Origin: Methanoregulaceae archaeon
Lineage (GTDB): Archaea > Halobacteriota > Methanomicrobia > Methanomicrobiales > Methanospirillaceae
Reading direction: 5' to 3'
DNA length: 51,084 nt
Assembly (NCBI GenBank): GCA_015660965.1
Contig: JACTVG010000011.1
Span: forward strand, 1-51,084
The translations under genes were made by a program, and so were the position numbers. Shown here one piece after another: positions 3,830 through 37,756 of the stretch. How positions within the stretch are numbered: position 1 is the first letter of the stretch; every line of letters begins with the position of its first letter. The notes beneath the pieces were generated by a model. The model worked only from the letters and a program-made list of their open reading frames with translations. It had not been told where the DNA came from and searched no databases.

Positions 3830-4990
3830 CTACTTTGCAACGATCTTTTGTATTATTGTCATGATTCCTGGTTTAGCAGCTTTCCTAACTTTTGTTTGAA
3901 AGGTAGTCATTTCTATCATAGGCGATTCGAACATCTCTTTATTGAGTCGTTCAGTTATTTCATTGAAGATCCTCTTATAGGCAGTGCAGTATGGGTCGAC
4001 ACCTTTTATTTCACCACCACCAGTAGGTGCAATTGCATTGTAGGGACATCCGCCTCGACAATATTTGATGTGGGGGCAGTCCTTACATTCCCGATCCACG
4101 TACTCCTTAAATTGTTGCATAAGTTTCCCAGCGTTAGATTGGGCAAGATCTTCCTTGCTTGGATGGTCCTTCACATTGCCCATAATATATTCTGGCATAC
4201 CTACAAACCGATAGCATGGGTATATACTTCCATCCGGTCCAACCGCAAAGGTGTTCCCCATACAATCCACGAATGTGCAAACTGAACCCCGACGGGTGAA
4301 CACACATCTGCACAAGTCGTTAATATTCATAACTTCAATCTCACCCAAGTGTTCCAGATATTTATCCAGAAGATACACTAACAAATCTCCATACTCTTCT
4401 GGATCAAGTGCCCATTGCTTGGGATTTTCATTACGTAAAGATGGTAATGCGGGATGCAATTTAAGTGTTAAATCATTTTCTAGGAAATAATTGAATATAT
4501 CTTCCCTAAATTTTACAGAATACGAGGTGAAGGTGCAGATGAATCTTACATTTAGACCATGAGCCTTGGCAATTTCATAACCCCGCATGGTCTTCTCATA
4601 GTATCCGTTCCCTCTCTGCAGATCATTAAGTTCTTGAGGGCCATCTATACTGGACCCGATGGGAACATTATACTCAGCGAATATTTGGGCTAGTTCCGGG
4701 GTAAGTTTCCAAAGATTGGTTTGGATAGCAAATTCTGGTTTCAGATGACTTAGCCCCTCTGAAAGTAAAGGTAATGCCTTCCGATAAAAATCAGCACCAG
4801 CGAGAAGGGGTTCCCCGCCATGGAAGGTAAAGGTGACCCGATCTTCCCGGAAATTCTTAAGCCATTCAACCACATCTTTGATAGTTTCAATGCTCATGAT
4901 TGGAGATCCCTCCTCAGAACTCCAACAGTAACTACAATGAGAAGGACAGCCTAAAGTCGGTATTAACATTATATGAAAGGCATTTTTCAT
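3830..4990 (-). CDS. Radical SAM/SPASM peptide-modifying-type enzyme
   Basis: A 386-residue radical SAM protein. Cys15, Cys19 and Cys22 form the CX3CX2C cluster-binding motif (GCPSHCSYCW), followed by the GGEP motif near residue 60. A C-terminal SPASM-type region holds further cysteines: CRCVFTRR, the VCTFVDC segment, YPCYRF, then CKDCPHIKYCRGGCPYNA and a last Cys. This is the architecture of anaerobic sulfatase maturases and of enzymes that modify ribosomal peptides. I recall a methanogen-specific peptide-modifying subfamily of this type, but cannot verify membership. No obvious Cys-rich precursor gene lies immediately upstream; the 83-residue ORF downstream is the nearest small gene. The substrate is unknown. 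Confidence 0.85.
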   Translation of the reverse strand: MKNAFHIMLIPTLGCPSHCSYCWSSEEGSPIMSIETIKDVVEWLKNFREDRVTFTFHGGEPLLAGADFYRKALPLLSEGLSHLKPEFAIQTNLWKLTPELAQIFAEYNVPIGSSIDGPQELNDLQRGNGYYEKTMRGYEIAKAHGLNVRFICTFTSYSVKFREDIFNYFLENDLTLKLHPALPSLRNENPKQWALDPEEYGDLLVYLLDKYLEHLGEIEVMNINDLCRCVFTRRGSVCTFVDCMGNTFAVGPDGSIYPCYRFVGMPEYIMGNVKDHPSKEDLAQSNAGKLMQQFKEYVDRECKDCPHIKYCRGGCPYNAIAPTGGGEIKGVDPYCTAYKRIFNEITERLNKEMFESPMIEMTTFQTKVRKAAKPGIMTIIQKIVAK

Positions 4991-27060: not shown

Positions 27061-27987
27061 ATGATCCGGGGTTTGAGGCGGCAAGATCGTATGAAGACTA
27101 TTTCTGAACCCTATGTTATTAATTACCCGCGGATTTGTGCGGTTGCGGATCAAACGGGAAGTAGGCTAGAATTATTTGAGTTCTTTGATTGTGTAGGGGG
27201 AGCGATGTGGTCAAAGAAGCAATATGCACAGAGTCCGCTTGTAGAATCTGTTCGTTGTGTTGGCAATATTATGCGGTATATGCTTAGGCCGGGGCATGTT
27301 GATCTTGCACTTGAAGGTTCAAAGTTCCCTGCAGGAATATCAGATGTTGCAGTCGATGACCGAGAGATTACGATCACCTATATCGGTATGGGCGGTGGTG
27401 GTGTAGGAGCGGCTGCGTGTCGTAGTGAAGCAGAAGGAGTCTTGAGGAGCAGAAGTGACGAATCTGGCGGTGGGAAAGTTGCGGGTTCTACAATTTGGCT
27501 TCCTCGTCGACAGCGGGTAGTAATTGGTGTTGATGACACAGATACCCCAGAAGAGGGAGCAACATGGACTCTAGTCCATAACATTGCAAAGACTGTAGAA
27601 GACAAAAATTCAGTCTATCTCTCGCATACGATTGTCCAGTTGTACCCAGTACCATATAAGACAAAGAATTGCGTCAGTTTAGTGGTCGAATTTGCATCCA
27701 CAGAACCGAAACAACTTATCGAAAAATTTCAAAGGCTTCTCAAACGGTACACACTTTCTGACAAGACCGGTATGGCGACATACATTGGTTTTTCACCTTC
27801 GAAACAGTTGATCGCGTTTGGGAGGATGGTCAAACGTGGGGAGATCAAACTTAAGTTACTAAACTCACTTCATGACGATCATCTATCGATTATTATGGAA
27901 GGCCGGGGTATTATCGGCGCTGTTGCCGCACTTCCCTTCTATACAAAATACGCGGAGGCTCTAGAATTATGCAATGGAGAGATCTAA
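27061..27987 (+). CDS. Methanogenesis marker protein 11
   Basis: Up to 308 residues; an ATG at 27091 (MKTISEPYVINYPRI) may be the true start. The acidic motif GVDDTDTPEEGATWT (~residue 156) resembles the ATP-binding core of tRNA(Ile2) 2-agmatinylcytidine synthetase TiaS, to which marker 11 is distantly related. A Gly-rich GMGGGGVGAAAC segment is near residue 109. The family occurs in methanogens and has no assigned reaction. It is the first gene of the coenzyme B operon and overlaps the next gene by 19 bases, so a role in cofactor synthesis is a reasonable inference. Confidence 0.87.
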   Translation: MIRGLRRQDRMKTISEPYVINYPRICAVADQTGSRLELFEFFDCVGGAMWSKKQYAQSPLVESVRCVGNIMRYMLRPGHVDLALEGSKFPAGISDVAVDDREITITYIGMGGGGVGAAACRSEAEGVLRSRSDESGGGKVAGSTIWLPRRQRVVIGVDDTDTPEEGATWTLVHNIAKTVEDKNSVYLSHTIVQLYPVPYKTKNCVSLVVEFASTEPKQLIEKFQRLLKRYTLSDKTGMATYIGFSPSKQLIAFGRMVKRGEIKLKLLNSLHDDHLSIIMEGRGIIGAVAALPFYTKYAEALELCNGEI

Positions 27988-28937
27988 AGGCACACCTTCT
28001 AGAAATTGGCACCACTCGGCTCAGTGGAGTGTCTGCAGATGAATATATTGCCGAATCAACCGCGGGTCCCGGAGCAGGTGGTAAGGGGGCCGTCTTCTTT
28101 TCTATGGGAACTCATCGTGTCAAACTTGCTCTCAATGCCACGAGTCCAATTGAAATCATCCATCGAGGTGGTGGAATAGCAGATCTGTATTTCGATAGTT
28201 CTATGAGATCGGGACGTCTTTTGCAACCGGGTCTCCATTGTCCTGAACAGGCATTTATTACAGTAACAGAACGCTGTGTCTTCCATTGTCGTTACTGTCA
28301 GGTGCCCAATCATCCAGGGCATCGCAAAAGTATTGAAGAAATTATTTCCCTTATCGAATCTGTTCGGCATAGAGTTAAAGCGATTGCGATTACAAGCGGT
28401 GTTCTGAAAAATATCGAAGAGGAAGAGGTATATGTACTGGAAGTAGTTCGTAATATACTCCAGTTCAATCTTCCAATAGGGGTATCAATTTATCCAACAG
28501 AACAGACTCCCGATCGGCTTCATTCTCTCGGTGTTGTTGAAGTAAAATTCAATATTGAAGCAGCGACTCCGCGAATTTTTGGATCGATGTGCCCTGATCT
28601 TGATTACGATCTCATCTGGGGAGTTCTCGAACGTTCTGTGAAGCTTTTTGGTAAGGGACGGGTTTTTTCAAATGTAATTATCGGACTAGGTGAAACTGAT
28701 TTAGAGATGGAGCAATGCATAAAACGGTTAACCTCTCGTGGTATACTCCCAGTTCTACGTCCGCTCAACCCCGTTGCGGATCTCGCTGGAACACCACGCC
28801 CATCAGCGGAACGACTTAAAAAGATCTTTTCTGTGCATCAGCGTGCACTCCAAGATACTGGATTAGATACACGGCAGGCACTTACGATGTGCACGAACTG
28901 CGCTGGATGCGATCTTGTGCCATGGAGGGACGAATGA
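27969..28937 (+). CDS. Radical SAM protein in the coenzyme B operon
   Basis: 322 residues. The radical SAM motif is C103-V-F-H-C107-R-Y-C110, giving CX3CX2C. Downstream, SIYPTEQTP (~177) and EVKFNIEAATPRIFG sit where BioB/HydE/HmdB-like enzymes have barrel strands. A C-terminal CTNCAGCDLVPW motif could bind an auxiliary cluster. The general shape resembles biotin-synthase-like enzymes; I cannot name the reaction. GCGGAGG lies 11 bases before the ATG. The stop overlaps the next start by four bases. Coenzyme B needs a thiol introduced at C7, so a sulfur-inserting role is conceivable but only inferred from position. Confidence 0.85.
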   Translation: MQWRDLKAHLLEIGTTRLSGVSADEYIAESTAGPGAGGKGAVFFSMGTHRVKLALNATSPIEIIHRGGGIADLYFDSSMRSGRLLQPGLHCPEQAFITVTERCVFHCRYCQVPNHPGHRKSIEEIISLIESVRHRVKAIAITSGVLKNIEEEEVYVLEVVRNILQFNLPIGVSIYPTEQTPDRLHSLGVVEVKFNIEAATPRIFGSMCPDLDYDLIWGVLERSVKLFGKGRVFSNVIIGLGETDLEMEQCIKRLTSRGILPVLRPLNPVADLAGTPRPSAERLKKIFSVHQRALQDTGLDTRQALTMCTNCAGCDLVPWRDE

Positions 28938-30205
28938 GAGGTACAGAAGTTGTTGCCAAAGCATTGCGTACCTGTGCAGATACTTTCTATACTGTTCCGG
29001 GCTATCCCGTGACTGAAATAGCTGAGATTCTTCATGCTGAACTCGTCATCAATGAGAAGGTGGCTCTTGAATATGCACTTGGGGACTCTATCGCTGGTAG
29101 ACGATCTGTATTAATCATAAAAAATGTGGGGCTTAACGTTTGTGCTGATCCTTTAGTCAATGCTACAACTCAAGGATTGCGGTCAGGAGTAGTAATCATT
29201 GCTGGAGATGATGTTTTAGCTAAAGGTTCGCAAAACACTCAAGATTCTCGTTATTATGGTGAGGTTGCACAGGTTCCCGTCATTGAACCGAATAAAATCA
29301 ATTGTGTTTCTGCAATTGCGTCTGCTTTTGAGGCATCAGAACATTTTTCAAGAGTTGTAATTGTTCGAGTGACTCCTCAATTACTGGAAAATGAAGCGGT
29401 AATGGGTGCATGTAAACGACAGGGTGTTCAAGGAAAACTAGCAGATCCAAATCTTACAATGCGAGGGCGGTCACAAGCAGCAGAAAAATTAACTTCTGCG
29501 ATGTTTGAATGGTCTCGTTCATCTCCCCTAAATGACTTTAAAGGTGGTGTTGTGGGTGTTGGAGCAACTGAAGGCGATTCACATGTAGCGACAGTTTATC
29601 CGCCCCCAGCAAAGACGGCAACTCTTGCTCGAACAAACGAACTTGGACGATCTTTTGTACATGAGCATCGATGCATTAAGGCCCAGAATTTCAAGGACAA
29701 GCCGGAGACCTATACAAAACGGGGACATTATCGTACCTTCTGTCGTGAATGCCCGTTCAAACCTTTGATTCAGAAATTAGTAGACCGAAAAATGTCCGTT
29801 ATCTGTGATATGGGGTGTTCTGTTCTAGCAACAAATCCACCTTACCGCATAGGTGTTGCCTGTTATGCCCTTGGGTCATCGATTGCTGTTGCAGCAAGAA
29901 GCACTCAAGTAGCACTAATAGGTGATTATGCACTCCTGCATTCTGGAATCAACGCACTTATTGATGTTTACGAGAAGCACCGTCCCCTTCTTTGTATTGT
30001 TCTTAAGAATGATCGGATGGGTATGACTGGTGGTCAGGAAATCTATGATCTTTTACGATATCTGACATGGGCAAAGCCAGTAGTATGCCGAGCAGATAAT
30101 GAACGGAACTTGAACAAAGAGCTCGTGGTAACGAAAACACCACGCACATTGATTGTCGAAGGGATGTGTCCCAAAGGTTGTAATCATGAAACCGTGGAAT
30201 GTTGA
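28934..30205 (+). CDS. IorA-like thiamine pyrophosphate enzyme (candidate 2-oxosuberate decarboxylase)
   Basis: 423 residues. The N-terminal PYR domain has NEKVALEYALGDSIAG with probable catalytic Glu41, then KNVGLNVCADPLVNAT and GSQNTQDSRYYG. A linker holds TFCRECPFKPL (~269). The PP domain has the GDYALLHSGINALID motif (330) and LKNDRMGMTGGQ, with Asn359 as probable metal ligand. These match indolepyruvate:ferredoxin oxidoreductase alpha. However, the C-terminal 2[4Fe-4S] domain is absent and no iorB lies nearby, so a non-oxidative 2-oxoacid decarboxylase is more likely. Start at 28934 gives an ATGA overlap and a GGAGGGA site. Situated just before aksA, it may decarboxylate 2-oxosuberate. 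Confidence 0.85.
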   Translation: MRGTEVVAKALRTCADTFYTVPGYPVTEIAEILHAELVINEKVALEYALGDSIAGRRSVLIIKNVGLNVCADPLVNATTQGLRSGVVIIAGDDVLAKGSQNTQDSRYYGEVAQVPVIEPNKINCVSAIASAFEASEHFSRVVIVRVTPQLLENEAVMGACKRQGVQGKLADPNLTMRGRSQAAEKLTSAMFEWSRSSPLNDFKGGVVGVGATEGDSHVATVYPPPAKTATLARTNELGRSFVHEHRCIKAQNFKDKPETYTKRGHYRTFCRECPFKPLIQKLVDRKMSVICDMGCSVLATNPPYRIGVACYALGSSIAVAARSTQVALIGDYALLHSGINALIDVYEKHRPLLCIVLKNDRMGMTGGQEIYDLLRYLTWAKPVVCRADNERNLNKELVVTKTPRTLIVEGMCPKGCNHETVEC

Positions 30206-31316
30206 GATTTGCGATGTTACCTTGAGAGATGGCGAGCAAACACCAGGCGTTTCGTTTTCTTGCGAGGAAAAGGTTGAGATAGCTCAAATGATTGACGCAA
30301 TCGGTATCGAGCTCATTGAAGCTGGATTTCCTGCTGTCTCTCCTAATGAAAAGAAATGCGTTAAGACAATTGCAAATTTGGGTCTTGATGCTCGTATTTG
30401 TGGTTTTGCCCGAGCTAAGGAACCCGACATCAGTACCGCAATTGATTGCGATGTTGATATGGTGAGTATCTTTATCCCCACATCAGATCTCCACATTAGG
30501 CTCAAGTTCAAAAAACCTCGGGAACAGGTACTCGAAGAAGCATTAATGACAATTGATTATGCTCGTGATCACGGTGTTCAGGTAAGGTTTGCTGCTGAAG
30601 ATGCATCCCGCACAGACCTTTCCTTTTTAAAAGAGGTTTACCATGGAGCTGAGGAACACGGTGCCGTACTCCTTAGTTTTGCCGATACGGTTGGTTGTCT
30701 TCTTCCGATGGAAATGTATCATATAATGAGTGACCTCGTGCACACGATGAAAACCCCCCTCTGTGCCCATTGTCATAATGACATGGGCTGTGCCGTAGCA
30801 AACACCCTTACAGCAGCGGAAGCTGGGGCGTACCAATTACATACCACGGTGAACGGTATTGGTGAACGATCGGGCAATGCTGCACTCGAAGAAGTGCTTA
30901 TTGCACTCCGTATGAAAGGGGGTATTGACCGATATGATCTTTCCCACCTTACAAAGCTCTCGAAGATGGTGGAAAAGTATGCGGGTATTACACTTCCCCG
31001 GAACAAACCCGTTGTTGGGGAGCTTGCGTTTTCCCATGAGAGCGGTATTCACATTGCAGCGATTCTTGATGATCCCTCCACCTATGAATACTTCTCTCCA
31101 GACCTTGTTGGGTCAGAACGGCATTTCATTCTCGGAAAACATACTGGAAAGAAAGCACTTGAGTATGTAGTTTCATCGATAGGATGTGAGTTATCTGAAA
31201 AGCAGATCTGTCGTGTGCTTGATTTAGTAAAGGAACATTCTGAACAAAAGTGCAATATCACACCAGTGGTTCTAAAAAAACTGATTAAAAAAGCGATAGA
31301 GGAAAAGCCAGAATGA
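30186..31316 (+). CDS. aksA: Homocitrate synthase AksA
   Basis: 376 residues of the LeuA/NifV/HCS family. CDVTLRDGEQTPGVSFS (~residue 9) carries the metal-binding Asp and Arg. AHCHNDMGCAVANTLTAAEA (~195) supplies metal-ligand His, followed by TVNGIGERSGNAALEE. With acetyl-CoA it extends 2-oxoglutarate, then the C6 and C7 homologues, in making 2-oxosuberate for coenzyme B. I start at 30186 (MKPWNVEICD). It overlaps the upstream gene by 20 bases and aksD by four. Specificity (AksA, not isopropylmalate or citramalate synthase) is inferred from the neighbouring aksD/E/F. Confidence 0.9.
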   Translation: MKPWNVEICDVTLRDGEQTPGVSFSCEEKVEIAQMIDAIGIELIEAGFPAVSPNEKKCVKTIANLGLDARICGFARAKEPDISTAIDCDVDMVSIFIPTSDLHIRLKFKKPREQVLEEALMTIDYARDHGVQVRFAAEDASRTDLSFLKEVYHGAEEHGAVLLSFADTVGCLLPMEMYHIMSDLVHTMKTPLCAHCHNDMGCAVANTLTAAEAGAYQLHTTVNGIGERSGNAALEEVLIALRMKGGIDRYDLSHLTKLSKMVEKYAGITLPRNKPVVGELAFSHESGIHIAAILDDPSTYEYFSPDLVGSERHFILGKHTGKKALEYVVSSIGCELSEKQICRVLDLVKEHSEQKCNITPVVLKKLIKKAIEEKPE

Positions 31317-32524
31317 GTACTTTATCAGAGCGAATCCTCAAAGCCCCGGCGGGAGAGTATGTTGATCGAAAGGTGGATCGTGCCTATGTGCATGATGGTA
31401 CAGGAGTGCTCACACTTGAGGCATGGAAAAATATGGGGAAACGAGGGCTTCATGACCCTTCGTCTCTTTCGGTCATTTTCGATCATATAGTCCCAGCAAA
31501 CAATTCGACTACAGCAGCTCTTCAGCATGAGCTGCGAGGGTTTGCACTTTCCTCTTTCATGAACTTTTTAGATATCGGAGAGGGGATCTGCCATCAGTGC
31601 ATGAGTGAAGGTGTAGTGCTCCCCGGGGAAATCGTTGTAGGTGCTGATTCACACAGCTGTACTCTTGGGGCTTTTGGAGCATTTGCAACTGGTGTGGGTG
31701 CGAGTGACATGGCAGCGATCTGGATGAATGGCGAGACTTGGTTCCGGGTTCCAGAGACAATTGGTATCCATCTAACTGGAAGTCTTGAAGGAGCAACAGA
31801 AGCAAAAGATTTGGCACTCAAATACGTGGGTGAGCTCGGTATGGATGGGTCGACTTATCAATCACTTGAATTCATTGGCGAGAGTGCGAAAGGATTGTCG
31901 ATTGATGATCGGCTTGTTCTTTGTAATCTTGCGGTTGAGACCGGAGCAAAGACAGGAATGTTCTACGCCGATAATGTCACCAAAAAATACCTCGCTGAAT
32001 TTGGTCATACAATCGTTCCACAACTACCGGAATCATGCAATTATGTGAAAGAGCTTGAAATTGAGTTATCGGATATTGTGCCACTTATAGCCGTTCCACC
32101 GCGAGTTGATACTGTAAAACCCGTTCACGATTTAGCGGGACTTCCTATCGATCAAGTTTTTGTTGGTACCTGTACAAACGGGAGGTATTCCGATCTCGTT
32201 AGGTTTGCAAGTATTGTTAAAGGGAATAAGGTCTCTGTACGAACCATTGTCGTTCCCGCTTCACGTACAACACTCACAGAAGCGATTCGGACAGGACTAC
32301 TCGCAGATATTGTAAAAGCGGGATGTGTGATCGGTATTCCAGGCTGTGGACCTTGCCTCGGTGCCCATATGGGTGTCATTGGTGAAGGTGAAGTCTGTTT
32401 ATCAACAGCAAACCGGAATTTCAAAAATCGAATGGGGGTGGGTGGGCAGATTTACTTATCATCGGTATCAACTGCTGCAACGAGTGCGATTATAGGTGAA
32501 ATAACTGAGCCGGGGGTTTTTTAG
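31313..32524 (+). CDS. aksD: Homoaconitase large subunit AksD
   Basis: 403 residues of the aconitase/LeuC family. GADSHSCTLGAFGAFATGVG (~residue 111) is a substrate-binding block. The [4Fe-4S] cysteines are in VGTCTNGRYSDL (~284) and GIPGCGPCLGAHMG (~343). It hydrates and rehydrates homocitrate and its longer homologues to the homoisocitrate series. It forms a two-subunit enzyme with AksE, which follows immediately. The four-base overlap with aksA (ATGA) indicates coupling. The alternative, isopropylmalate isomerase, is disfavoured by the small subunit loop. Confidence 0.92.
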   Translation: MSTLSERILKAPAGEYVDRKVDRAYVHDGTGVLTLEAWKNMGKRGLHDPSSLSVIFDHIVPANNSTTAALQHELRGFALSSFMNFLDIGEGICHQCMSEGVVLPGEIVVGADSHSCTLGAFGAFATGVGASDMAAIWMNGETWFRVPETIGIHLTGSLEGATEAKDLALKYVGELGMDGSTYQSLEFIGESAKGLSIDDRLVLCNLAVETGAKTGMFYADNVTKKYLAEFGHTIVPQLPESCNYVKELEIELSDIVPLIAVPPRVDTVKPVHDLAGLPIDQVFVGTCTNGRYSDLVRFASIVKGNKVSVRTIVVPASRTTLTEAIRTGLLADIVKAGCVIGIPGCGPCLGAHMGVIGEGEVCLSTANRNFKNRMGVGGQIYLSSVSTAATSAIIGEITEPGVF

Positions 32525-32995
32525 ATGCACGGTAAAGGAAAAGCAGTATGTTTAGCTGCAGATATTGATACCGATTTGGTTATCGCAGGACGATATTTAC
32601 GCACAAAAGACCGCAGTTTATGGGGGCAACATGTGTTTGAAGATCTTGATCCCAAACTTGCCCCGCGATTGAAAGGGTCCGTAATTGTTGCAGGGAAGAA
32701 TTTTGGTTGTGGCTCATCACGAGAGCAAGCAGCGATAGCATTGCACGAGGCAGGAGTACTTGCAGTCGTTGCTCCTACCTTTGCTCGCATCTTCTTCAGA
32801 AATGCGATCAATATAGGCCTTCCTCTAATTGAATCTAACCTTAACTGTATAGATGGACAGATTGTTTCATTCGATCTCAGTTCTGGGTGGGTAGAATCTG
32901 GTGGGAAACGAAGAATGGTTCGTGCCCTTTCACCGCGAATGCTCGATATTCTCAAGGCTGGTGGATTAATCGAATATTGGAAGGGAAAACGATGA
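32525..32995 (+). CDS. aksE: Homoaconitase small subunit AksE
   Basis: 156 residues of the LeuD-type swivel domain. The GSVIVAGKNFGCGSSREQAA motif (~residue 56) is conserved. The specificity loop reads Y24-L25-R26-T27; YLRT, rather than the YLVY-type loop of isopropylmalate isomerase, is the reported determinant of homoaconitase activity in Methanocaldococcus. That supports the aks assignment of the whole operon. The gene starts right after the aksD stop and overlaps the next gene by four bases. Confidence 0.93.
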   Translation: MHGKGKAVCLAADIDTDLVIAGRYLRTKDRSLWGQHVFEDLDPKLAPRLKGSVIVAGKNFGCGSSREQAAIALHEAGVLAVVAPTFARIFFRNAINIGLPLIESNLNCIDGQIVSFDLSSGWVESGGKRRMVRALSPRMLDILKAGGLIEYWKGKR

Positions 32996-33795
32996 TCTTC
33001 CCTAAACAATGCAAAAATGTGGGTTTTGCTTCGACACAACCTTGTGGGCAAATGGTCTACTTTTTAAGTCGATATCTTGTTCACCCTATAGATGATGGAT
33101 TCGAGATCCTTGAAGTTGAATTTGATCCCGATGAAAAAGGCATGATGCGACACATTGTAAAGTCAAGGGTGATCTCTAAGAAAAGTGAAGTATATCGATA
33201 TCCAGATAAAGTGCAAATTAATGATCGAACTCGGCTCATTCAGCTAGCTCTTGATTCTAGATATCGGTGTACGATTTTCTTTGGACTCGACGAACATATG
33301 ACTTTTGTGCTTGACCCAGATCTTTCAGACCTTTTAAAGATTCATGTGTACGATTCAAGTCCCCCAAGACCGAGCCTTTCTGCATGCATCCGCGACCTAG
33401 AATCCTGTGGACTATTCGGTGATTTAAACGTAATATTCTGCCATCATATACTCGATATTTCGCAGATGAAAGCAGATGTTTATCCTTGTCGTGCAGCTGG
33501 GTTTACTCGTACTCTTGATGCAGATGCTGTAAAAGGAAATGAGAGAGTTGCTGGATGTTTGACTGGTTCACAATTAATGGGTGAATGTTATGGTACTAAT
33601 TTTGAGCTACTCAACATCTGTCCGCTTTCCGCAGTTAATGAAGAACCATTTATTGCTCGATGCTGTCGCTCTGACCGAGAAGGTAAGGGAACTTATAACG
33701 GAAAACAAGGGATAGTGGTGCATTGGGGTGCATCTCCGTGGCAGATTTCAGAATCAATCTTTTCACTCACAAAGGAGTGGAGGAAGCATGCCTAA
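32992..33795 (+). CDS. Unknown 267-residue protein within the aks operon
   Basis: Not recognised with confidence; I think it is a methanogen-specific domain of unknown function. It starts at 32992 with an ATGA overlap and ends inside aksF's start (eight-base overlap), so it is clearly an operon member. Noteworthy residues are many Cys and His: CKNVGFASTQPCGQ near the start, LESCGLFGDLN, FCHHILDISQ, YPCRAAGFTR, VAGCLTGSQLMGECYG, LNICPLS and ARCCRSD. The end reads GIVVHWGASPWQISES. No membrane segment or signal peptide is seen. The metal/thiol-like composition and location make it a candidate for a late coenzyme B step. Confidence 0.85.
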   Translation: MIFPKQCKNVGFASTQPCGQMVYFLSRYLVHPIDDGFEILEVEFDPDEKGMMRHIVKSRVISKKSEVYRYPDKVQINDRTRLIQLALDSRYRCTIFFGLDEHMTFVLDPDLSDLLKIHVYDSSPPRPSLSACIRDLESCGLFGDLNVIFCHHILDISQMKADVYPCRAAGFTRTLDADAVKGNERVAGCLTGSQLMGECYGTNFELLNICPLSAVNEEPFIARCCRSDREGKGTYNGKQGIVVHWGASPWQISESIFSLTKEWRKHA

Positions 33796-34756
33796 AATTG
33801 CTATTGTTGAAGGAGACGGCATCGGTCATGAAGTAATCCCTGTTGCAAGAAAAGTATTGGAACTAATCCATCCTGATTACGAGTATTACAATGTTGATGT
33901 CGGTTACCATCGATGGGAAGAAATAGGTTGTCCTTGTGCCGATCGCGATATTGCAGTACTCAAGGAAGCTGATGCTATTTTGTTTGGAGCAGTAACCACT
34001 CCGCCAATGAAAAATTATCAGAGCGTCATCCTTCGAATCCGAAAAGAACTTGACTTATATGCAAATTTGCGTCCAGTAAAGGCAAATGGTTTTGACATAA
34101 TGATCGTACGAGAAAATACTGAAGGTCTTTACTCAGGCATAGAAGAAATCGGTCCTGATCGTGCAACAACTTTGCGAGTGGTAACAAGAAAAGGTACAGA
34201 GCGAATTGCCCGTTTAGCTATCCAACTTGCAAAGGCTAGAAAATCTCTTACAGTGGGACATAAAGCCAATGTCCTGAAGTCTGATGTTTTCTTCCGGGAT
34301 ATTTGTCTTGCAGAGGCAAAAGCTGCAGGTATAATATGTAACGAGAAATTTATTGACGCCCTAGCACTCGATATCCTCCAACATCCTGAATCTTATGACG
34401 TCGTTGTAACAACCAACATTTTTGGAGATATTCTTTCAGATGTTGCCTCTTACCTTGTTGGTGGATTGGGCTTATTACCAAGTGAGAATATAGGTGACCG
34501 TTTTGCACTTTTCGAGCCAGTTCATGGTAGTGCTCCAGATATTGCAGGAAAAAATATTGCAAATCCGATAGCAGCCATAAGAAGTGCTGCTATGTTACTT
34601 TCATACCTTGGGGATGTTGTGGGTGCGGAACGCATTGAACATGCGATTCAACAAGTCGTTACAAAGGGTGTGAAGACGAGAGATCTTGGTGGGACTGCTG
34701 GAACGCGAGAATTTGGTGCAGCCGTAGCCAATGCGATCAACCTAACCAAGGGATAA
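33788..34756 (+). CDS. aksF: Homoisocitrate dehydrogenase AksF
   Basis: 322 residues, isocitrate/isopropylmalate dehydrogenase family. IVEGDGIGHEVIPVA is at the N-terminus, and LYANLRPVKA (~residue 90) and VRENTEGLYSG (~107) bind the substrate. GHKANVLKSDVFFRD (~158) and TTNIFGDILSD (~205) follow, the latter with metal Asp residues, and HGSAPDIAGKNIANP (~255) lies near the NAD site. It oxidatively decarboxylates homoisocitrate and longer homologues to 2-oxoadipate, 2-oxopimelate and 2-oxosuberate. Start at 33788 with a strong GGAGTGGAGG site. Last gene of the operon. Confidence 0.92.
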   Translation: MPKIAIVEGDGIGHEVIPVARKVLELIHPDYEYYNVDVGYHRWEEIGCPCADRDIAVLKEADAILFGAVTTPPMKNYQSVILRIRKELDLYANLRPVKANGFDIMIVRENTEGLYSGIEEIGPDRATTLRVVTRKGTERIARLAIQLAKARKSLTVGHKANVLKSDVFFRDICLAEAKAAGIICNEKFIDALALDILQHPESYDVVVTTNIFGDILSDVASYLVGGLGLLPSENIGDRFALFEPVHGSAPDIAGKNIANPIAAIRSAAMLLSYLGDVVGAERIEHAIQQVVTKGVKTRDLGGTAGTREFGAAVANAINLTKG

Positions 34757-36288: not shown

Positions 36289-37104
36289 ATGATTGAATCT
36301 GACATCATTCCCAATACATTTGCGGAACTCCTCCGGGAAATACGGAAGAAGCGCCCTCTCATCCATCACATAACTAATACTGTGTCTATTAACGATTGTG
36401 CAAATATCACGTTATCAATTGGTGCTGCACCGGTTATGGCGGAAGCTTCTGAAGAAGTTGAGGAGATGGTGGCGATGGCAGATGCTCTTGTGCTCAACAT
36501 CGGTACATTGTCTCGACCTCAAGTTGAATCTATGCTTGATGCTGGACGAAAATCAAATGCTCTTGGTATTCCTGTTATACTCGATCCCGTAGGTGCAGGG
36601 GCAACTAGGATGAGAACGGATAGTGCCAAGCTTCTTCTTGACAGGTTGAAGATTTCGGTTTTAAAGGGAAATGCAGGTGAGATCAGCGTTCTTGCGGGTG
36701 AAAAAGGAAAAGTAAGAGGAGTAGATTCACATGGTGTCAGTGGAGATACAATTTCCATCGCAAAGGAATTTGCACGTAAAGCAGGTGTCATAGTGGCTAT
36801 GACTGGCGCGACGGATATTGTCTCTGATGGAACACATGTCCTGCTGATAGATAACGGGCATGAAATGATGGGAAGATTGTCAGGTACTGGATGTATGGCA
36901 GCATCGCTTACTGGTGCCTTTGTCGCAGTGTCTTCTGATTATCTAATCTCGACGGCTGCAGCACTCGCAGCGTTTGGTATTGCGGGAGAGCGTGGAGCTG
37001 CTATAACACACGGACCATATTCATTTAGAACTGCATTAATGGACGAAATCTCAGCCCTTTGCCCCGATGATCTCATTCAGAGATCAAGAGTGAGATCCGT
37101 CTAA
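36289..37104 (+). CDS. thiM: Hydroxyethylthiazole kinase
   Basis: 271 residues of the ThiM family. [20 protein letters not shown] (~residue 25) and [17 protein letters not shown] (~44) form the thiazole site. [14 protein letters not shown] (~97), [13 protein letters not shown] and [15 protein letters not shown] (~201) carry the phosphate and catalytic residues. It phosphorylates 4-methyl-5-hydroxyethylthiazole for thiamine synthesis or salvage. thiE follows four bases later. I see no thiamine riboswitch in the short leader and no Shine-Dalgarno site, so it may be leaderless. Confidence 0.95.
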
Positions 37105-37108
37105 AATT

Positions 37109-37756
37109 ATGAACTACGACCTATATGTGATAACAGATAGTCCTCTCGCAGGTGGGCGATCACATGATGAGATTGTAAAGTTGACAATCGAAGGTGGCGC
37201 CGATGTAATACAATTACGAGACAAAGCGTGCAGCTCAACTGAATTAGTGGAGATTGGTAACCGGATAAGAAAGATCGCCCGTAAAACCGGAACGACATTT
37301 ATTGTAAACGATCATCTCAATGTTGCTCTTGCATGCGATGCTGATGGGGTTCATCTGGGCCAAGGAGATTTATCGGTCCGTAGGGCGAGAAAGATAGTTC
37401 CTAAGGATTTTATAATCGGAGTTTCAGTCGGTTCTGTTTCTGAAGCGTTGAAAGCATTTAATGATGGTGCAGATTATATCGCAGCAAGCCCTGTTTTTCC
37501 TACAGAACAAAAGAAAGAGGCAATAACTTTTTGTGGACTTGAAGGAGTTCGGCAAATTAGGGTTGCAGTTGATATTCCATTGGTCGCCATCGGAGGTATC
37601 GGTTTGCATAATATCCGTGATGTATTAATGACCGGAGTTGACGGAGTTGCGGTAATTTCTGCCGTTATGGCACAACCCGATATTTCAAGTGCGACAAGAG
37701 AGCTAAAGCAACGTATAAGAGAAATTAAAATTGAACGTTTAGCGCAACTCCGGTAA
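37109..37756 (+). CDS. thiE: Thiamine-phosphate synthase
   Basis: 215 residues of the ThiE TIM-barrel family. Motifs are LYVITDSPLAGG at the start and GADVIQLRDKACSS (~residue 30), then FIVNDHLNVALACDADGVHL (~70) with GQGDLSVRRAR. GVSVGSVSEA, ADYIAASPVFPTEQKKEA (~123) and VAIGGIGLHNIRDVL (~155) follow. It couples hydroxymethylpyrimidine pyrophosphate with thiazole phosphate. It forms an operon with thiM, and the MFS gene starts five bases after it. Confidence 0.95.
   Translation: MNYDLYVITDSPLAGGRSHDEIVKLTIEGGADVIQLRDKACSSTELVEIGNRIRKIARKTGTTFIVNDHLNVALACDADGVHLGQGDLSVRRARKIVPKDFIIGVSVGSVSEALKAFNDGADYIAASPVFPTEQKKEAITFCGLEGVRQIRVAVDIPLVAIGGIGLHNIRDVLMTGVDGVAVISAVMAQPDISSATRELKQRIREIKIERLAQLR

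Follow-up and report, generated by a model that had tools for sequence, protein, structure and literature searches.

A shortened IorA-type thiamine-diphosphate enzyme as a candidate 2-oxosuberate decarboxylase of coenzyme B synthesis in class II methanogens

A gene encoding a shortened member of the IorA superfamily (called IORL for simplicity) lies at 28934-30205 on the forward strand of a 51,084-nucleotide stretch of DNA from a Methanoregulaceae archaeon (JACTVG010000011.1; this whole stretch is referred to as the window). From its sequence and gene neighbourhood we predict, with somewhat better than even probability, that IORL is the thiamine-diphosphate-dependent, non-oxidative 2-oxosuberate decarboxylase in the coenzyme B pathway. 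That it acts somewhere in this pathway is likely on the basis of the operon, the linkage to aks genes, the co-occurrence with AksA and the loss of the genes as a block. The proposed role would apply to class II methanogens and their close relatives (Methanomicrobiales and several further Halobacteriota families). Every methanogen needs coenzyme B because methyl-coenzyme M reductase requires it, and in older tracer work by R. H. White 2-oxosuberate was reportedly decarboxylated to 7-oxoheptanoate. A 2011 review listed two unknown proteins for coenzyme B and named the semialdehyde that follows 2-oxosuberate "suberate semialdehyde" (PMC3087415), and a 2025 paper still called coenzyme B biosynthesis unknown (PMC12068725). 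In the literature searched, largely open-access, the genes acting after 2-oxosuberate are unassigned and no report of a 2-oxosuberate decarboxylase was found.

Results

IORL is embedded in an operon with aks genes

The IORL reading frame is intact (ATG at 28934 to TGA at 30205, 423 aa) and lies in a run of genes on the forward strand, opened by mmp11 (27091-27987; methanogenesis marker protein 11, TIGR03280) and a radical SAM protein gene (27969-28937). Downstream, NCBIfam and Pfam profiles identified aksA (30186-31316, chain-elongating homocitrate synthase type), aksD (31313-32524, homoaconitase large subunit), aksE (32525-32995, homoaconitase small subunit) and aksF (33788-34756, homoisocitrate dehydrogenase type), with a DUF7714 gene (PF24830, 32992-33795) placed between aksE and aksF. 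All junctions from mmp11 (27091) to aksF (34756) are overlapping or gapless, IORL sharing 4 nt with the upstream radical SAM gene and 20 nt with aksA; fhcD is found 147 bp upstream of the run. The first-pass annotation had assigned IORL to one operon with aksA, aksD, aksE and aksF, in agreement with both the overlapping genes and the profile matches. AksD and AksE passed the cut-offs of the archaeal subfamily models; AksA (449.7 bits, cut-off 484.75) and AksF (385.7 bits, cut-off 409.8) fell somewhat short, so their names are based on homology and context. In relatives, AksA is distinct from the LeuA/CimA-type copies (57-67% versus 37-45% identity).

IORL is related to IorA and lacks its ferredoxin domain

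Profile matches and the AlphaFold2 model assign PYR and PP domains to IORL, which thus appears as an IorA-type thiamine-diphosphate enzyme devoid of the ferredoxin domain. The best NCBIfam model was IOR_alpha (TIGR03336) with 157.5 bits, far under the cut-off of 650.9, and the Pfam match was TPP_enzyme_C. IORL is not an IorA equivalog as defined by TIGR03336, by score and for want of both the C-terminal 2[4Fe-4S] domain and an IorB (PF01558) partner gene. It does carry what marks the superfamily, namely the PYR/PP motifs for thiamine diphosphate and the four cysteines of the proximal cluster, in a single chain as in IorA.

An alignment of 46 IORL and 27 canonical IorA proteins was inspected, in which the core IORL family comprised 43 members (20 from the own order, 23 from other families). 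Glu41 (29054-29056), the PYR-domain residue presumed to activate the thiamine cofactor, is common to all 46 IORL and 27 IorA rows, as are Lys63, Asn68, Asp93 and Asp331. The thiamine-diphosphate/Mg motif starts with GDY at residues 330-332 (29921-29929) and ends with Asn359 (30008-30010); these residues and Glu41 were found where they had been annotated and align with IorA. The third motif position serves as a family signature, being Tyr or Phe in 42 of the 43 core IORL proteins (GD[YF]) versus GDS in 27/27 IorA proteins. In a quick tree, one fully supported branch separates IORL from IorA.

Cys270 and Cys273 (Cys-x-x-Cys, 29741-29752), Cys295 (in a DxGC motif, 29816-29818) and Cys412 near the C-terminus (30167-30169), the presumed ligands 1-2, 3 and 4, are retained in 43/43 core IORL and 27/27 IorA proteins. 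PFOR-type enzymes bind a [4Fe-4S] cluster next to thiamine diphosphate through CxxC, GxGC and a C-terminal Cys, and we take the four IORL cysteines, aligned via IorA, to correspond to these proximal-cluster positions. Because the cysteines are kept throughout the core family, IORL is probably not cluster-free, and the sequences point to a bound [4Fe-4S] cluster as the probable state. The chain extends 0-23 aa beyond Cys412 in IORL, compared with 52-80 aa in the 27 canonical IorA proteins, whose tails carry 8-9 Cys (4 in one of the 27 rows); the absence of the ferredoxin tail noted in the first pass is thereby borne out, as is that of an IorB-like partner in the operon. IORL proteins of the own order are about 375-425 aa long and shortened mid-protein, against about 500 aa elsewhere. 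Open frames of 731 and 762 aa in G286, at first sight IORL fusions, were dismissed as upstream read-through, and the IORL homologue at L251 7533-8918 (G300, Methanosarcinales-like) showed one in-frame TGA in the search.

The predicted PYR-PP fold is shared with acetolactate synthase and thiamine-dependent decarboxylases

The AlphaFold2 model of IORL (pLDDT 94.5) has a PYR-PP fold. In a fold comparison the best match was acetolactate synthase (Z = 27.5), with benzoylformate and pyruvate-type decarboxylases near-equal; these enzymes share the fold at Z 25-27 and 12-17% identity. They possess a middle domain and, to our knowledge, no cluster cysteines. PFOR-type structures were absent among the best 50 fold matches listed, and a PDB search gave no match with the IORL sequence alone and weak matches only with the family profile. 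The modelled PYR-PP arrangement, catalytic Glu and GD...N motif are as expected for a thiamine-dependent non-oxidative decarboxylase, although in such a model oxidative and non-oxidative chemistry are not distinguishable from the fold alone. The Thermococcus pyruvate decarboxylase/ferredoxin oxidoreductase, a bifunctional heterotetramer, requires CoA and releases aldehyde, and an aldehyde-forming side activity is described for ferredoxin-linked POR-type relatives (PMC4058850). IORL differs from the bifunctional Thermococcus enzyme in being a single chain without electron exit.

The same genome encodes canonical IorAB, and its gamma-subunit genes lie near other thiamine-diphosphate subunits

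A different contig of the own genome (G000:C5) encodes a canonical IorA (595 aa) and IorB. Five POR-gamma (PF01558) genes were found in this genome, none of them near IORL and each 0.3-1.7 kb from a different thiamine-diphosphate subunit match. With all five so placed, no gamma subunit appears free for IORL and, the ferredoxin tail being absent as well, it is hard to see where electrons would leave or CoA would bind.

IORL is linked to coenzyme B genes by neighbourhood and by co-loss

The order mmp11-radical SAM-IORL-aksA-aksD-aksE-DUF7714-aksF recurs, with minor variations, in each of the six families examined from the own order, which we read as Methanomicrobiales. Outside the order, IORL adjoins aks genes in families f7, f14 and f30, as does a divergent homologue in f25, the genes there being ordered and oriented differently; in f8 and f22 the neighbour of IORL is mmp11, not aks. 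A conserved operon in six families together with aks neighbours in four more is beyond what chance would produce.

IORL and AksA were jointly present or absent in 23/23 Methanomicrobiales genomes, 12 having both and 11 neither, although several of the IORL-lacking genomes are incomplete (79-92%) and an assembly gap could remove the whole operon. This within-clade comparison bears out the co-occurrence that the first-pass annotation had suggested checking. The Fisher value of 7e-7 ignores relatedness; because the genomes are related, 23/23 overstates the independent events, and the losses probably amount to about three genera. The nearest 40 relatives of the own genome all have an IorA-type match. 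Clean loss of the block was seen only in G160 and G236, on whose contigs mmp11, the radical SAM gene and DUF7714 stand in a row and IORL, aksA, aksD and aksE are missing from a locus that is otherwise intact; the block is present in sister genomes within that genus. An apparent case of AksA without IORL in G160 was set aside as NifV, the AksA-like gene standing beside nif genes, and G185 carries the same extra NifV copy. In G389 and G391 even the LeuA/CimA-type genes are missing. This pattern recalls the nutritional requirements of Methanomicrobium mobile, which is described as requiring coenzyme B (Kuhner 1991, as cited in PMC10658910).

IORL is confined to one large clade

Among 247 genomes of the phylum, IORL was found in 101 and DUF7714 in 102, with both in 99. 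McrA was present in 148 of the 247, and 51 of these 148 had no IORL; conversely, IORL without McrA was found in four genomes, the incomplete G082 and G088 and the outlier-bearing G158 and G172. In genomes reached via named McrA loci, IORL was detected in Methanococcoides and other Halobacteriota and was not found in Methanobacteriaceae, Methanothermococcus, Methanocaldococcus, Methanopyri, Methanomassiliicoccales, Methanomethylicota, Methanoliparum or MCR-bearing Archaeoglobi; these showed either canonical IorA or no match at all. No sampled member of the Methanobacteriota had IORL, and likewise for Methanobacteriales and Methanococcales. IORL is therefore not common to all coenzyme B makers: with 51 MCR-positive Halobacteriota genomes and the sampled Methanobacteriota lacking it, the initial proposal that it is the missing decarboxylase in general does not hold. 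Its absence from most other methanogen lineages points to a clade-specific solution.

The first-pass annotation would have counted presence in non-methanogens against the assignment. None was found in the core family; the finding is qualified by the divergent outliers in G158 and G172. The G172 homologue was rejected as a core IORL (GDS motif, neither AksA nor McrA, placed next to IorA in the tree). In the halophile-like G158, where McrA was not found, aksA/D/E/F adjoin an IORL homologue without the four cluster cysteines (L063 4994-6418). We did not accept L063 as proof that the cluster is dispensable, given its GDT motif, Asp in place of Asn359, very long branch and missing McrA.

Discussion

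In the proposed pathway AksA, AksD, AksE and AksF would build 2-oxosuberate, which would be bound by thiamine diphosphate held between the PYR and PP domains of IORL; the enzyme would then release CO2, protonate the carbanion and free 7-oxoheptanoate for thiol formation. IORL may have descended from an IorA-like ferredoxin oxidoreductase after loss of the ferredoxin domain and the gamma subunit. With electron exit and gamma subunit lost, oxidation and CoA transfer are unlikely, and the proximal [4Fe-4S] site may have been retained for structure or cofactor tuning. A parallel is offered by ComDE, likewise a thiamine-dependent 2-oxoacid decarboxylase, whose aldehyde product goes into a thiol coenzyme of methanogens.

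The plain decarboxylase suggested by the first-pass annotation is still the best fit, with the reservation that the four cluster ligands are retained, so that IORL cannot be called such an enzyme on the strength of the missing ferredoxin domain alone. Ligands so strictly conserved are unusual for a plain decarboxylase and are more in keeping with a redox enzyme. A redox enzyme in the same pathway would decarboxylate 2-oxosuberate oxidatively and pass electrons via the proximal cluster to a carrier, yielding pimeloyl-CoA or a thioacid to be reduced later to the thiol. The cysteines conserved in 43/43 core members and the redox character of the superfamily speak for this, yet we regard it as unlikely, as there is neither a ferredoxin domain nor a partner subunit in the operon nor a free gamma subunit in the genome, and 7-oxoheptanoate reportedly lies on the path according to the older tracer work. 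It is less plausible again that IORL serves another step of coenzyme B synthesis, either the removal of 2-oxoacids of the wrong length (C6, C7) or thiol formation. Linkage to the pathway does not fix the substrate, and the retained cluster could serve a reductive step; early decarboxylation of the C6 and C7 compounds would, however, drain the pathway, and a thiamine enzyme would naturally fit the decarboxylation gap.

Two further proposals would take IORL out of coenzyme B synthesis. Homology to indolepyruvate oxidoreductase could mean that the substrates it decarboxylates are aryl or branched 2-oxoacids of amino-acid metabolism and that its place in the operon is fortuitous, a reading that is improbable in view of the canonical IorAB in the same genome, the co-loss with AksA while IorA stays and the aks linkage in several families. 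A sulfopyruvate decarboxylase replacing ComDE in coenzyme M synthesis would suit the own genome and G378, which have IORL and no ComE above the cut-off; the other genomes with IORL and no ComE, G158 and G237, carry outlier homologues. Against this stand eight genomes with both IORL and ComE (G034, G030, G185, G231, G179, G109, G048 and G211), two with ComE and no IORL (G160 and G236) and the fact that IORL follows AksA, and we give this proposal very little credence. The ComE profile TIGR03846 did not match the IORL protein at E <= 0.01. As for a separate established decarboxylase in the same genomes, which had been named as a possible objection, the ComE cross-table shows that IORL occurs independently of ComDE.

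Non-oxidative decarboxylation of 2-oxosuberate by IORL would provide a named candidate gene for this step in one large methanogen clade, with the prediction that other methanogens carry out the decarboxylation by different means. DUF7714 is a second candidate gene from the same operon. It has five invariant Cys and a confident AlphaFold2 model that found no PDB fold match. In a profile search it weakly matched XcbA of bacterial coenzyme M synthesis, a protein that one paper regards as functionally analogous to sulfoacetaldehyde dehydrogenase (PMC11507031). Because of this weak match and the analogue role of XcbA, DUF7714 is a possible thiol-forming enzyme; its survival in the Aks-lacking G160 and G236 counts against a purely de novo synthesis role. 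More tentatively, a converted oxidoreductase scaffold with a [4Fe-4S] cluster, acting as a stand-alone 2-oxosuberate decarboxylase, and DUF7714 might together complete 7-mercaptoheptanoate synthesis in class II methanogens, others using unrelated enzymes. Coenzyme B auxotrophy within Methanomicrobiales may have its genetic basis in the loss of IORL and the aks genes.

DUF7714, mmp11 and the radical SAM gene outlast the loss of IORL and aksA/D/E at L234 4838-5629 and L235 1715-2506, so these three proteins may have a function besides the de novo pathway to coenzyme B. The radical SAM protein (27969-28937) is distantly similar to LipS2, a lipoyl synthase that carries out sulfur insertion. No second mmp11-like copy was found in the window; in many relatives such a gene, about 30% identical, lies between fhcD and mmp11 (L072 12846-13586, L074 6453-7334). 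The own genome, 99.88% complete, has no ComE above the cut-off, which may point to uptake of coenzyme M or to another route of synthesis. Elsewhere in the window, thiM and thiE of thiamine phosphate synthesis are found at 36289-37756, 1.5 kb downstream of the thiamine-enzyme operon, and a TIGR04083 peptide-modifying radical SAM enzyme (724.6 bits) is encoded at 3830-4990, near mtr and mcr genes.
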